Source: Halobacterium hubeiense (GTDB lineage Archaea; Halobacteriota; Halobacteria; Halobacteriales; Halobacteriaceae). Taken from it: DNA of 64,000 nucleotides. Shown one piece after another: positions 47,968 through 51,216 of the stretch. The stretch covers positions 2,170,001 to 2,234,000 of the forward strand of contig NZ_LN831302.1 of NCBI RefSeq assembly GCF_001488575.1, given 5' to 3'. The notes under the pieces are model-generated. The model did no database searches. It was not told where the DNA came from and was given only the letters and a program-made list of their open reading frames with translations. The first letter of the stretch is position 1. Each line of letters opens with the position of its first letter. The position numbers and the translations under genes are program-made.

Positions 47968-48387
47968 TCAGTCGCCGCCGAGTTCGTCGAAGAGGGCGGC
48001 GACTCGCTCCCGAATCTCGTCCCGAATCCGTGTGACCGCCTCGGGCGAGCGGCCGTCGGGGTCGTCTAAGTCCCAGTCGCGGTTCTCGCCCGCCCAGCCC
48101 GCCGGACAGACGTCCTCGGCGGAGCAGCCCATCGTAATCACGTAGTCCGCGTCCCGGACTTCCTCGAACGTGACTTCCCGGGGCGTGCGGTCCGAGAGGT
48201 CGAAGCCGGCGTCGGCCATCGCGGCAACGACCTCTTCGTGCACGTGGTCGGCGGGGTCGGTGCCGCCGGTCACGAGGTCGATTTCGGCTTCGAGGCCACG
48301 GGCGACGCGTTCGCGCTCGGCGAACGCGTACGCCATCTGGGAGCGGCCAGCGTTCTGCACGCAGACAAAGGCGAGGGTGGTCGTCAC
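47968..48387 (-). CDS. arsC: Arsenate reductase, low-molecular-weight phosphatase type
   Basis: A 139-residue protein with the CX5R phosphate-binding loop at C9-R15 (FVCVQNAGRSQMAYAFAE) and further cysteines in MGCSAEDVCPAG, which fit the redox relay of thioredoxin-dependent ArsC. It reduces arsenate to arsenite for export by Acr3. The start is GTG at 48385-48387, overlapping by 4 nt the stop of a small arsC-like fragment. It is the last gene of the arsR-acr3-arsC operon. Confidence 0.9.
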   Translation of the reverse strand: MTTTLAFVCVQNAGRSQMAYAFAERERVARGLEAEIDLVTGGTDPADHVHEEVVAAMADAGFDLSDRTPREVTFEEVRDADYVITMGCSAEDVCPAGWAGENRDWDLDDPDGRSPEAVTRIRDEIRERVAALFDELGGD

Positions 48388-48482
48388 GCGACCACCTCTC
48401 GCCGAGCGTGCAGAGCACGTCGCACCGCAGGTGAGACGGCGTTCTGCACGCAGACGAACGAGAGTGTAGTTGTTTCAGTCAT
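48384..48482 (-). pseudogene. arsC N-terminal fragment (degenerate duplicate)
   Basis: A 32-codon frame starting ATG at 48480-48482 encodes MTETTTLSFVCVQNA, which is the arsC start up to the phosphate loop. It then diverges (VSPAVRRALHARREVVA) and ends in a TGA that overlaps the arsC start codon. The 17-bp string gcgttctgcacgcagac is present in both the fragment (48439-48455) and arsC (48350-48366). The fragment ATG overlaps the acr3 stop by 8 nt. It lacks R15 and all later catalytic residues, so it cannot be a working reductase; it may still keep translation coupled between acr3 and arsC. Confidence 0.75.
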
Positions 48483-49620
48483 CGGTGAGTGGGGCGTCGA
48501 GGCTGCCGGTAGTGTGGTCGGTCCAGTCGTAGCGGCGCTGGAAGTACAGCGCGACGTTCACGAGCGCCAGCAGGACCGGCACCTCGATGAGCGGGCCGAC
48601 GACGGTGGCGAACGCGACGCCGGAGCCGACGCCGAAGACGGCGACGGAGACGGCGATAGCGAGTTCGAAGTTGTTCGAGGCGGCGGTGAAGCCGATGGCG
48701 GTGGTCGTGGAGTAGTCCGCGCCGATGCCCTTCCCCATCCCGAAGCTCACGAGGAACATCACGACGAAGTAGACAGTGAGCGGAACGGCGACGAGCAGGA
48801 CGTCGCCGGGCGCGGCGACGATGTTGTTCCCCTGCGTGGCGAACATCACGACGACGGTGAACAGGAGCGCGACGAGCGTCAGCGGGTCGATTTTCGGGAC
48901 GAACTCGTTCTCGTACCAGTCCTCGCTGCGGAGCCGCGTGCCCGCGAAGCGGGTGAGAAAGCCCGCGGCGAACGGCACGCCGAGGAAGACGACGATTGCC
49001 TCGAAGACTTGTCCGGGAGTGACGTCGAAGCTCGTGACGCCGGCGGCGAGGGCATCCAGCCCGAACGCCGACGGGAGCACGAGCGCGAACAGCCAGACGT
49101 AGACGCCGTACGTGAGAATCTGGAAGAGGCTGTTGAACGCCACGAGCCCGGTGACGTACTCCGTGGAGCCCTCCGCGAGTTCGTTCCAGACGAGCACCAT
49201 CGCGATGCAGCGCGCCATCCCGATGAACACGAGCCCGAGGAAGTACTCGGGGCGCGCGGGCAGCCCGGGGACGACGCCGCCGAAGAAGACGACCGCGAGC
49301 GCGAACATCAGCGTCGGGCCGATGAGCCAGTTCTGGACGAGGCTCAGTCCGAGGATGCGCCAGTTGCTGAACACGGCGCGCAGCTGCGAGTAGTCGGCTT
49401 TCGCCAGCGGCGGGTACATCATCAGAACGAGGCCGATTTCCACGAGGTGGAGGTCCTGGATGGGCGCGGTCACCGACGGCGCGGCGTAGCCGAGGCCGAC
49501 GCCGGCGGCCATCGCGGCGAAGATCCAGACGGTGAGGTACTTGTCGAGGACGTCCATCGAGCGCGGGTCGCCGCAGGCCTCGCAGCCGCAGTTCGGGCCG
49601 TGCTCGTGGGCGTTACTCAT
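48475..49620 (-). CDS. acr3: Arsenite efflux transporter, ACR3 family
   Basis: A 381-residue transporter with about ten transmembrane helices. GMARCIAMVLVWNELAEG contains the conserved cysteine essential in ACR3 transporters, and IGFTAASNNFELAIAVSVAVFG is the second signature. The first 20 residues (HEHGPNCGCEACGDPRS) form a His/Cys-rich extension that may bind metalloid or metal. It exports arsenite produced by ArsC. It overlaps arsR by 8 nt. Confidence 0.92.
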   Translation of the reverse strand: MSNAHEHGPNCGCEACGDPRSMDVLDKYLTVWIFAAMAAGVGLGYAAPSVTAPIQDLHLVEIGLVLMMYPPLAKADYSQLRAVFSNWRILGLSLVQNWLIGPTLMFALAVVFFGGVVPGLPARPEYFLGLVFIGMARCIAMVLVWNELAEGSTEYVTGLVAFNSLFQILTYGVYVWLFALVLPSAFGLDALAAGVTSFDVTPGQVFEAIVVFLGVPFAAGFLTRFAGTRLRSEDWYENEFVPKIDPLTLVALLFTVVVMFATQGNNIVAAPGDVLLVAVPLTVYFVVMFLVSFGMGKGIGADYSTTTAIGFTAASNNFELAIAVSVAVFGVGSGVAFATVVGPLIEVPVLLALVNVALYFQRRYDWTDHTTGSLDAPLTDD

Positions 49621-50002
49621 TGCTCACCCCGCGGTCGGCGGCGGCGAAGAGGTCGTCGGCGAGCGCGGTGGCGTCGTAGTACCGCCAGTTGCCGTCCTTC
49701 CGGCGGGTGGCGAGTCCGGCGTCGACGAGGTCCGAGAGCGCGTGGCTGACCGCGCTGTCGGAGACGTCGACGAGCGGTTCGAGCTCGCAGACGCAGCGCT
49801 CGCCGTCGCTTTCGGCGAGCACGCGCGCGAGCCGGTAGCGGGTGTCGTTGCCGAGCACCGCGAACACGGACTGGGTGTCGTCGTCGAACGCGTCGTCGGC
49901 GAGCCCGTGGAGTTCGTCGAGACGCCGCTCGACGTCGCCGTCACAGCACTCCCCGAGTTCGTCGGCGAGCAACCGACGCAGCCGGTCGGAGCTCTGAGCC
50001 AT
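49613..50002 (-). CDS. arsR: ArsR-type metalloid-responsive repressor
   Basis: A 129-residue winged-helix repressor. ERCVCELEPLVDVSDSAVSHALSDLVDAGLA (about residues 68-98) holds the CxC metalloid-sensing pair in the recognition region, as in classical ArsR (CVCDL). An additional CC pair lies at 19-20. It should repress its own operon until arsenite or antimonite binds. The operator-like inverted repeat at 50008-50031 is centred 17 nt upstream of its ATG. Confidence 0.9.
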   Translation of the reverse strand: MAQSSDRLRRLLADELGECCDGDVERRLDELHGLADDAFDDDTQSVFAVLGNDTRYRLARVLAESDGERCVCELEPLVDVSDSAVSHALSDLVDAGLATRRKDGNWRYYDATALADDLFAAADRGVSNE

Positions 50003-50123: not shown

Positions 50124-50197
50124 GTCCGGGGTAGGGTAGTGGACTATCCTTCAGCCTTGTGGAGGCTGAGACGCGGGTTCAATTCTCGCCCCTGGAC
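50124..50197 (+). tRNA. tRNA-His (anticodon GTG)
   Basis: A complete cloverleaf can be drawn: a 7-bp acceptor stem (tccgggg with ccctgga, one G-U pair), an anticodon stem cagcc/ggctg with loop ttgtgga and anticodon GTG, and a T-arm gcggg-ttcaatt-ctcgc. The extra G at position -1 (50124), encoded in the DNA, faces C73 (50197), the identity pair of tRNA-His. CCA is not encoded. There is no intron. Confidence 0.93.
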
Positions 50198-50219
50198 CTC
50201 CATTTTCGAGTGACGATGC

Positions 50220-50249
50220 GACGAACGACCGCGTAGCGTGTCGTTCGTC
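50220..50249. other. Perfect 10-bp hairpin downstream of tRNA-His
   Basis: gacgaacgac (50220-50229) and gtcgttcgtc (50240-50249) are exact inverted copies with a 10-nt loop. It lies 23 bp past the tRNA. It might help end or process the tRNA transcript, or be part of the inserted relic. Confidence 0.5.
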
Positions 50250-50330
50250 CACGTCGCGAGCTACTGAGCGTCCAAGAGAATCGAACCCTGCGAGACGCAG
50301 CGCGAACGCAGTGAGCGACCGTCTCGCTCC

Positions 50331-50354
50331 GGTTCAATTCTCGCCCCTGGACCT
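50331..50354 (+). repeat. Duplicate of the tRNA-His 3' end (att-like scar)
   Basis: 24 bp here are identical to 50176-50199, the T-loop and acceptor 3' half of tRNA-His plus two following bases (ggttcaattctcgcccctgg and acct). Integrases of mobile elements use tRNA 3' ends as attachment sites and leave such direct repeats. The 131 bp between the copies carry no gene. Confidence 0.75.
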
Positions 50355-50451: not shown

Positions 50452-51216
50452 ATGCGACGCAGAGCCCTCCTCGCCGGCGTCGCGGCCGGCGCGACGACCG
50501 CACTGGCCGGCTGCACGGACGCCGGGAGCCTGTTCGGCGACCCCGTCCAAGAGACCCGCGAGCAGTACTTCGACGTGCCCGACGGCACCCGGATTCGCGT
50601 CGAGAACGAGAGCGGCGACGTGTCCGTGAGCGGCCGCGACAGGCCGGACGCGAGCGTGGACGCGACGGTGATGGCACCGGGAGAGAGCCGTCTCGACGAC
50701 GTGACCGTGTCGGTGAACGAGGACGAGAACGGCGACCTCGCCGTGGACGTGGACGTCTCCGGTGACGCGAGCCGTGTGAGCGTAGACCTCGACCTGCGCG
50801 TCCCAGAGGACGCCGCGATGGCGCCGGTACAGACGGAGAACGGCGACGTCGAGGTCCGGGGCGTCGCCGGCGTGCCCGCGGCGCGCTCGGTGAACGGGGA
50901 CGTGACGGTGCGGGACGCCGGGCCGGTCGGCTCGGTGTCGAGCGCGAACGGCGACGTCGCCGCAGACGTGCCGGCGCCGCTCCCCGGCGACGTACTGGTG
51001 CGCACCGAGAACGGGGACGCCGAAGTAGCGCTGTCCACGGACGCCGACGCGACGCTGGACGCGCAGACGGAGAACGGCGACGTGGACGTCGAGGAACTAG
51101 GACTCCAGAACCGAAGCGGGAACGACGGGCGCGTCACCGGCACGCTCGGGGAGGGAACCCACGACGTGACGATAGCGACGCTGAACGGGAGCGTCGAGGT
51201 CCGGGCGCTCCAGTAG
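50452..51216 (+). CDS. Tat-exported lipoprotein with beta-solenoid repeats (DUF4097-like)
   Basis: A 254-residue protein. The N-terminus MRRRALLAGVAAGATTALAGC has a twin-arginine signal and a lipobox (LAGC, lipidated C21), typical of haloarchaeal lipoproteins. From about residue 45 on, short repeats with the core ENGDV, VNGDV or ANGDV recur about every 18-25 residues, the pattern of a beta-solenoid as in DUF4097 adhesin-like domains. It probably sits on the outer face of the membrane; function unknown. The ATG at 50452 is 27 nt behind a tttacc box. Confidence 0.78.
   Translation: MRRRALLAGVAAGATTALAGCTDAGSLFGDPVQETREQYFDVPDGTRIRVENESGDVSVSGRDRPDASVDATVMAPGESRLDDVTVSVNEDENGDLAVDVDVSGDASRVSVDLDLRVPEDAAMAPVQTENGDVEVRGVAGVPAARSVNGDVTVRDAGPVGSVSSANGDVAADVPAPLPGDVLVRTENGDAEVALSTDADATLDAQTENGDVDVEELGLQNRSGNDGRVTGTLGEGTHDVTIATLNGSVEVRALQ

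Follow-up and report, generated by a model that had tools for sequence, protein, structure and literature searches.

The tRNA-His locus and its repeated tail

The window (the whole 64-kb stretch of DNA that was analysed) comes from a 3.13-Mb genome, here G000, and contains a tRNA-His gene whose 3' end is repeated a short distance downstream on the same strand. We call this 3' segment of the tRNA its tail, and the inverted copy of it that lies between the two direct copies the anti-tail. The features of the locus are as follows.

50125-50198, forward strand: tRNA-His (GTG), called by ARAGORN; Rfam RF00005 covers 50125-50197 with 48.4 bits
50176-50199, forward strand: tail 1, the functional copy, which spans the tRNA from its T-loop to its acceptor end; 24 bp, exact match to 50331-50354
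50200-50354, forward strand: whole unit, 155 bp, consisting of a 131-bp spacer and one tail; present in G000, absent from the congener G003
50210-50257, forward strand: hairpin A, from the fold of 50199-50275
50270-50287, forward strand: inverted tail copy (anti-tail), GTCCAAGAGAATCGAACC, identified from sequence; core at 50276-50287
50288-50330, forward strand: hairpin B core, CTGCGAGACGCAGCGCGAACGCAGTGAGCGACCGTCTCGCTCC, which recurs behind other tRNAs
50331-50354, forward strand: tail 2, identified as a sequence repeat; it matches the tRNA 3' end exactly, with TTTCG after it

Both tails read GGTTCAATTCTCGCCCCTGGACCT, a 24-bp exact repeat at 50176-50199 and 50331-50354 with 155 bp from start to start, and the sequence thus confirms the initial annotation in its report that the T-arm and acceptor segment recurs exactly at the second position. 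This repeat is not due to chance, because 100 second-order Markov resamples of the window contained no exact 20-mer pair at a spacing of 40-400 bp, compared with 10 such word pairs in the real window, of which the tRNA-His repeat supplies 5 (24-20+1) and a 20-bp repeat at 50830/51064 supplies 1. Between 50100 and 50460 the Rfam gathering score is reached by the tRNA alone; the second match at E up to 1, Tymo_tRNA-like, is sub-threshold (15 bits against 40, E 0.88) and overlies the tRNA itself. The open reading frames predicted across the spacer are probably the usual artefacts of GC-rich sequence, and no integrase gene can fit into the 131 bp between the tails. What does lie there, and is missing from the initial annotation, is the inverted tail copy (50270-50287) and two hairpins, giving the order tail 1, hairpin A, inverted tail copy, hairpin B, tail 2.

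The core of the anti-tail (50276-50287) can pair with tail 1 or with tail 2, in either case with one A.C mismatch. Hairpin A, folded as 50199-50275, has a z score of -3.28 with RNA parameters and -3.42 with DNA parameters, and 0/200 shuffles were as good with each. The fold that joins tail 1, hairpin A and the anti-tail (50176-50291) reaches z -5.99 as RNA (0/200 shuffles) and z -3.90 as DNA (1/200), and the fold that joins the anti-tail, hairpin B and tail 2 reaches z -3.53 as RNA (1/200) and z -3.32 as DNA (0/200), with the reverse strand of the latter also folding (RNA z -2.49, DNA z -3.64). These two larger folds are mutually exclusive because both need the inverted copy. In hairpin B, arms of the form ..TYGAACC/GGTTCRA.. 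enclose an unpaired spacer, an inner stem and a variable tip. The inner stem is part of the minimum-energy fold under RNA parameters and not under DNA parameters, with which the outer arm-to-tail stem is retained and the inner stem gives way to two smaller stems.

Occurrence and variation at tRNA-His

A strict pattern of two tRNA-His tails with 76-136 bases between them matches 74 of 292 genomes of the class Halobacteria, distributed over 36 of 77 genera, and its reversed control gives 0 matches; the count is a lower bound, G000 itself being missed by the gap rule. Tandem arrays are present at tRNA-His in G203 and in G239, the latter with five tails in a row. Across 54 distinct tRNA-His units matching the tail pattern, which leaves three positions free, the tails are identical in 53. 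Among named records, a pattern of two tRNA-His tails 100-130 bases apart retrieved 13 stretches, one from an uncultured archaeon and the other 12 from genera that we take to be Halobacteria (Haloferax, Halogeometricum, Natronorubrum, Halorussus and others), which suggests that G000 too is a haloarchaeon. At 28 tRNA loci, 26 of them outside the class and three with less than 600 bp downstream, there was no tail copy at 16/20 or better, and in two further genomes from the phylum, 60 tRNA genes gave four matches at 19-20/20, each inside an adjacent full tRNA. On these small samples, which are few and not isotype-matched (0/26 loci outside the class, and four matches that are all adjacent tRNAs), we reject conservation of the arrangement across archaea. 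When the tRNA-His unit was searched against plasmids, the one match, in Natrinema, covered query positions 23-98, which is the tRNA part; the search against phages gave no match.

Short-spaced tail copies are present at tRNA-His in 12 of 20 relatives, at +119 to +311 bp (in G015 only at 3 mismatches of 19), a further relative (G009) has a copy at 1036 bp, and seven have none. Over the 12-19 kb downstream of tRNA-His in these 20 relatives, no same-strand tail copy with up to 3 mismatches of 19 lies past 1036 bp; on the reverse strand, a single match in G002 lies 5.0 kb away and has 3 mismatches. In the congener G003, which has no unit, the flank of the tRNA aligns with the G000 flank that follows tail 2 (129/151 identical from base 0) and not with that following tail 1, an alignment indicating that the two genomes differ by exactly one unit. 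The flank of G004, also without a unit, continues as that of G002 does after its tail 1 (42/45), and the flank of G006 matches nothing well. The outer flank of G012 is like that of G003 (97/108), yet by eye G012 carries a different unit.

G007 carries an orthologous unit (88% identity over tRNA and unit) with G in both tails at a position where G000 has A in both, and the anti-tail of G000 still implies G although both of its tails carry A. The two tails of the G000/G007 unit thus changed together, in a concerted manner. More broadly, the anti-tail base tracks the tail base in 29 of 32 tRNA-His units (G-C in 19 and A-T in 10, with G.T in 2 and A.C in 1), a count drawn from the 54 distinct units after leaving out 22 that have no clear inverted copy. 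In G009 a 973-bp insert (L026:1575-2548) separates the tRNA from hairpin B and the tail copy; it has 52% G+C, compared with 61% for the locus, and encodes a 280-aa ORF with an HNH domain (PF01844, E 1.8e-05). At this G009 locus neither hairpin A nor the inverted tail was seen.

These comparisons divide the initial annotation, which read the two tails as an att pair left by an integrated element and proposed that relatives be compared for an element between the copies. The repeat does behave as a recombination junction: G003 is short of exactly one unit. A scar left by a lost element at tRNA-His finds no such support, given that no far same-strand copy is present in the 20 relatives and that the same arrangement recurs at 52 of 133 tRNA genes (see below). 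The search for tail copies over 12-19 kb found no island in those relatives; the G009 insert is nevertheless there, so that it would not be strictly correct to say that no insertion is ever found.

The same annotation pointed to the adjacent arsenic operon as a sign of an acquisition hotspot. The window does contain a small arsenic-type cluster at 47968-50002, composed of an LMWPc gene, an SBF-family transporter and an arsR-type regulator. However, arsR was found no farther than 1.5 kb from tRNA-His in 7 of the 12 genus members tested, the unit-less G003 among them (21 loci searched, 7 with arsR; more distant genes would be missed at this radius), and we therefore reject a hotspot made by the ars operon and regard the link as apparently incidental. 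Near the start of the arsC-like (LMWPc) gene itself, a 17-bp sequence recurs at a spacing of 89 bp (48350-48455), as if the gene start had been duplicated, and G005 has a 26-bp repeat with the same 89 bp spacing.

Tail copies and a shared hairpin behind other tRNA genes

We compared the last 20 bases of each tRNA gene with the 400 bp downstream of the same gene in G000, G047 and G117, which represent three haloarchaeal families, taking tRNAs from Rfam hits (with tRNA-Pro(CGG) of G000 added from ARAGORN), counting 16/20 or better as a match and using as mismatched-pair control the tails of other tRNAs that differ at 6 or more of the 20 bases. A copy of the gene's own tail lies behind 11/44 tRNA genes in G000, 23/44 in G047 and 18/45 in G117, 52/133 in total, compared with 10/1648, 8/1602 and 0/1674 mismatched pairs, 18/4924 in total. 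In the three haloarchaea surveyed, the share of tRNA genes followed by a tRNA-linked unit thus ranges from a quarter to about one half. Summed over the three genomes, copies stand behind His (3/3), Gly (6/9), Val (6/9), Met (4/6), Arg (8/14), Ser (6/12), Leu (6/14) and Thr (1/9) genes, and there are none behind those for Ala (0/12), Asp (0/5), Ile, Asn and Cys (0/3 each). The tRNA-Ser(CGA) gene of G000 has two, at +147 and +289. The copies at Gly-CCC and Gly-TCC of G000 are broken by extra hairpins, fall below the threshold and are left out of the survey count. At these two loci (L047 and L051, respectively), as well as at L104 in G022 and L111 in G007, the tail copy is interrupted after GGTTCRAAT by two more hairpins, and the acceptor part then resumes.

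The 52 copies were selected on a match to the last 20 bases, which makes their internal identity high by construction and leaves their edges as the finding. Upstream, identity ends 0-2 bases before the TTC of the T-loop in 40/52 and 3-5 bases before it in 12/52; downstream, it ends no more than 3 bases past the tRNA end in 46/52, with three copies extending for 30 bases or more. The copied segment therefore runs mostly from the T-loop to the tRNA 3' end. All lie at a spacing of 88-234 bp. The accompanying anti-tails fit the tail of their own tRNA at a mean of 11.1/14, compared with 9.3 for other tails; in 26 of the 52 cases no other tail fits as well as the own one, and in the other 26 this is not so.

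Many tRNA genes are followed by hairpin B, usually next to their own tail. A strict hairpin-B pattern found 11 matches in the three genomes and none when reversed, and 10 of the 11 are behind a tRNA gene and on its strand, including two (L101 and L110) at which the tail copy has diverged. We also inspected 20 BLAST matches of the tRNA-His unit in relatives, chosen among those listed, mostly high-scoring and outside tRNA-His: 17 follow a tRNA for Ser, Met, Leu, Lys, Gly, Ala or Glu at a distance of 37-370 bp, one adjoins a truncated Lys tail, and two are at apparently the same protein gene as locus L003 of G000. The tRNA-His hairpin B of G000 is 92.5-93.4% identical to the tRNA-Ser hairpin B of G012 and G001. 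That such matches stand beside the own tails of different tRNAs shows that the hairpin B core is common to different tRNAs and that the flanking arms usually follow the local gene. A generic dispersed repeat or a REP/MITE-type palindrome is rejected as an identity for hairpin B, with 10/11 strict and 17/20 chosen matches behind tRNA genes.

At the protein-gene locus (L003:1410-1560; G000 C1:524030), a 412-aa gene ends in GTTCGACGAAGCG and this end is repeated after hairpin B. The GTTCGA at the gene end resembles a T-loop. In G003 the corresponding gene end is GTTCGACGAGGCG, and the repeat seems to have changed in step; in G012 the copies have diverged. The other loci of this case are L282 and L283.

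We scanned 455 kb, with a low-complexity filter and counting exact words only, for direct repeats of 14 bp or more at 50-260 bp, and found many away from tRNAs, up to 34 bp long and some with 8-11 bp of inverted match between the copies. Where the inverted match reached at least 12 bp, the site was always a tRNA, yet several tRNA-His repeats, including that of G000, scored 0-10 under exact-word counting; with this reservation the scan led us to set aside a general property of haloarchaeal gene ends. A 201-bp tandem repeat of another family, of the type CCTTTTT..AAAAATCT..AAAAA, lies behind tRNA-Pro in G014 (L093:8105-8470), and the same type is present in G000 at L070 (tRNA-Ser(GGA)) and L071 (tRNA-Leu(TAG)).

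Possible readings: recombining repeat, functional RNA or attachment site

On balance we lean, if only slightly, towards a reading in which the tRNA-His locus holds one "tail-echo unit", a DNA-level repeat that is gained, lost and homogenised by recombination at a T-loop junction, and in which, as part of the same reading, this unit belongs to a family of repeats that are linked to tRNA 3' ends across the class Halobacteria. We infer that units would be gained and lost, and tails homogenised, through DNA recombination with its junction in the T-loop, at about G53/T54, so that the tRNA would retain an intact 3' end, and that the hairpins may be the conserved core of the recombining unit. The specificity of the copies for their own tail, their T-loop-to-end edges, the shared hairpin B, the tandem units and the clean presence or absence of a unit all support this reading. 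Several observations weigh against it: no recombinase is linked to the units, the integron integrase scoring below its cut-off in all 40 genomes searched, the clean difference between G000 and G003 is compatible with insertion or deletion alike, the similar units of G000, G007, G011 and G012 (compared by eye) could be what deletions have left of an ancestral array, and hairpin B could have spread by gene conversion among pre-existing units. The inner stem of hairpin B is also part of the best fold with RNA and not with DNA parameters, and selection at the RNA level could keep the pairing as well, the fold expected of a readthrough transcript being strong (RNA z -5.99).

The last two points lead to a functional RNA, which we consider unlikely as the main explanation. 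The unit would be a structured 3' trailer or backstop terminator, in which the anti-tail traps the tail of a readthrough RNA and tail 2 releases it, with complementarity kept by selection. The fold of tail 1, hairpin A and the anti-tail is far better than its shuffles, the anti-tail base tracks the tail base in 29/32 tRNA-His units, and T/C-rich stretches follow many tail copies (by eye), as such a model would have it. The structures are moreover strand-specific and on the tRNA strand: the 101 spacers examined, which are partly related and many of them from tRNA-His, have 56 tandem-GA (GA/GA) hairpins on the tRNA strand and 3 on the opposite one, compared with 15 and 16 on the two strands of 1054 control pieces. 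This bias fits a transcript or one strand of folded DNA alike. Nor do wobble pairs decide the matter, as the stem ratios of G.T to A.C under four settings are 5:2, 11:10, 18:8 and 10:13, with 32:43 for anti-tail pairs, so that G.T is not clearly in excess within units; when control pieces (18:38 and 3:13) serve as the reference, the stems tilt towards G.T, in the direction expected under selection on RNA but without significance (Fisher p 0.12 and 0.17). A set of 46 hairpins has 311 Watson-Crick pairs, 0 G.T and 0 A.C, under a threshold that disfavours mismatches. A functional RNA also sits poorly with the absence of copies at many tRNAs (all those for Ala, Asp, Ile, Asn and Cys in the survey) and at the tRNA-His of several congeners, matches no Rfam family except tRNA, and leaves the T-loop-to-end boundary unexplained.

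Tail-echo units have a partial counterpart in the rtT repeats of E. coli tyrT (Rfam RtT), tandem units behind a tRNA gene, each beginning with the 3' end of that tRNA, in one bacterial operon. The tRNA-His arrays of G239 and G203 and the two copies at tRNA-Ser(CGA) of G000 likewise repeat the 3' end of the upstream tRNA in tandem. Unlike rtT, the haloarchaeal units stand behind many different tRNAs and contain an inverted copy of the tail as well as a hairpin core common to them, and the Rfam RtT model has no match at the tRNA-His locus. Integron attC sites offer a second comparison, being imperfect palindromes in which inverted arms with GTTRRRY enclose an unpaired spacer and an inner stem that carries a variable tip. 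The haloarchaeal unit resembles rtT in its tandem 3'-end repeats and attC in its shape, and on the tests applied it belongs to neither.

It is quite unlikely, in our estimation, that the likeness to attC reflects attachment-type recombination, with the unit as a minimal cassette, hairpin B and the T-loop arms as a folded-strand site and the tRNA tail as receiving site. Arms, spacer, inner stem and tip follow the attC order, with a junction near G^TT, the tandem-GA hairpins are strand-specific, tandem arrays form at one receiving site, and sister species carry different units at the same site. The arms have GTTC in place of GTTRRRY, however, and their sequence follows the local tRNA, so that a cassette could not reach another tRNA without a change of tail. 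The observed units carry no genes, the G009 insert perhaps excepted, and the hairpin B inner stem of the tRNA-His unit is not the best DNA fold. The integron integrase IntI (TIGR02249) scored above its cut-off in 0/40 genomes; matches below that cut-off occur somewhere in 30/40, and no recombinase was linked to the units.

Conventional integration scars, with tyrosine integrases of viruses or plasmids repeatedly leaving attR copies at the 3' ends of many tRNAs, strike us as very unlikely. Hairpin cores common to different tails, together with an inverted tail copy, are unusual for att scars. The units share with tyrosine-integrase att sites a direct repeat of the tRNA 3' end from the T-arm and clean occupied and empty sites (G000/G003), and tRNA 3' ends are preferred by archaeal integrases (PMC8371274). 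A tRNA-His island of 52 kb in Haloquadratum HBSQ001 ends in a 43-nt repeat of the tRNA 3' end (PMC3119063). The 973-bp G009 insert with its HNH gene between tRNA and hairpin B also speaks for such scars. Unlike att pairs, the copies described here bound no island over the 12-19 kb searched in 20 relatives, and they fall into one spacing class (88-234 bp) at 52/133 tRNA genes. A lone integration scar is rejected as the sole explanation because the arrangement is systematic (20 relatives, 74/292 genomes, 52/133 tRNA genes).

For the tail-echo unit, a process already described in haloarchaea may account for part of its turnover. In its section on repeat-mediated deletion in Haloquadratum and Halobacterium, PMC3119063 describes a core and one copy of a short direct repeat that are absent from one of two strains; G003 and G000 differ in the same way, by a core and one repeat copy, and unit loss would fit such deletions. 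This process accounts for the loss of a unit, not for its origin, and the same section does not mention hairpin units at tRNAs; the tRNA duplications that it describes are partial ones due to the integration of prophages. A literature search, which most subscription journals lay beyond, found no description of a tRNA-linked tail and hairpin unit. Tentatively, and as a possibility that we would hesitate to call probable, the unit may represent a new class of gene-end element: a conserved hairpin core that is flanked, wherever it settles, by direct and inverted copies of the local gene's 3' end and so is parked harmlessly behind tRNA genes, or rarely behind a protein gene with a T-loop-like GTTCGA end. 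A putative haloarchaeal enzyme would then move it at the T-loop junction, through either folded-strand recombination or templated copying.

The 3' ends of tRNA genes are described as favoured landing sites of archaeal mobile DNA in PMC8371274. A unit that supplies further copies of this landing segment, at as many as about half of the tRNA genes in a genome, would change the calling of att scars in haloarchaea, and one may speculate that it could serve as a decoy or spare 3' end during the integration of elements. The unit would also offer a directly testable system for recombination or RNA processing, and a dedicated enzyme, if real, would imply a new mechanism of site-specific or templated duplication.
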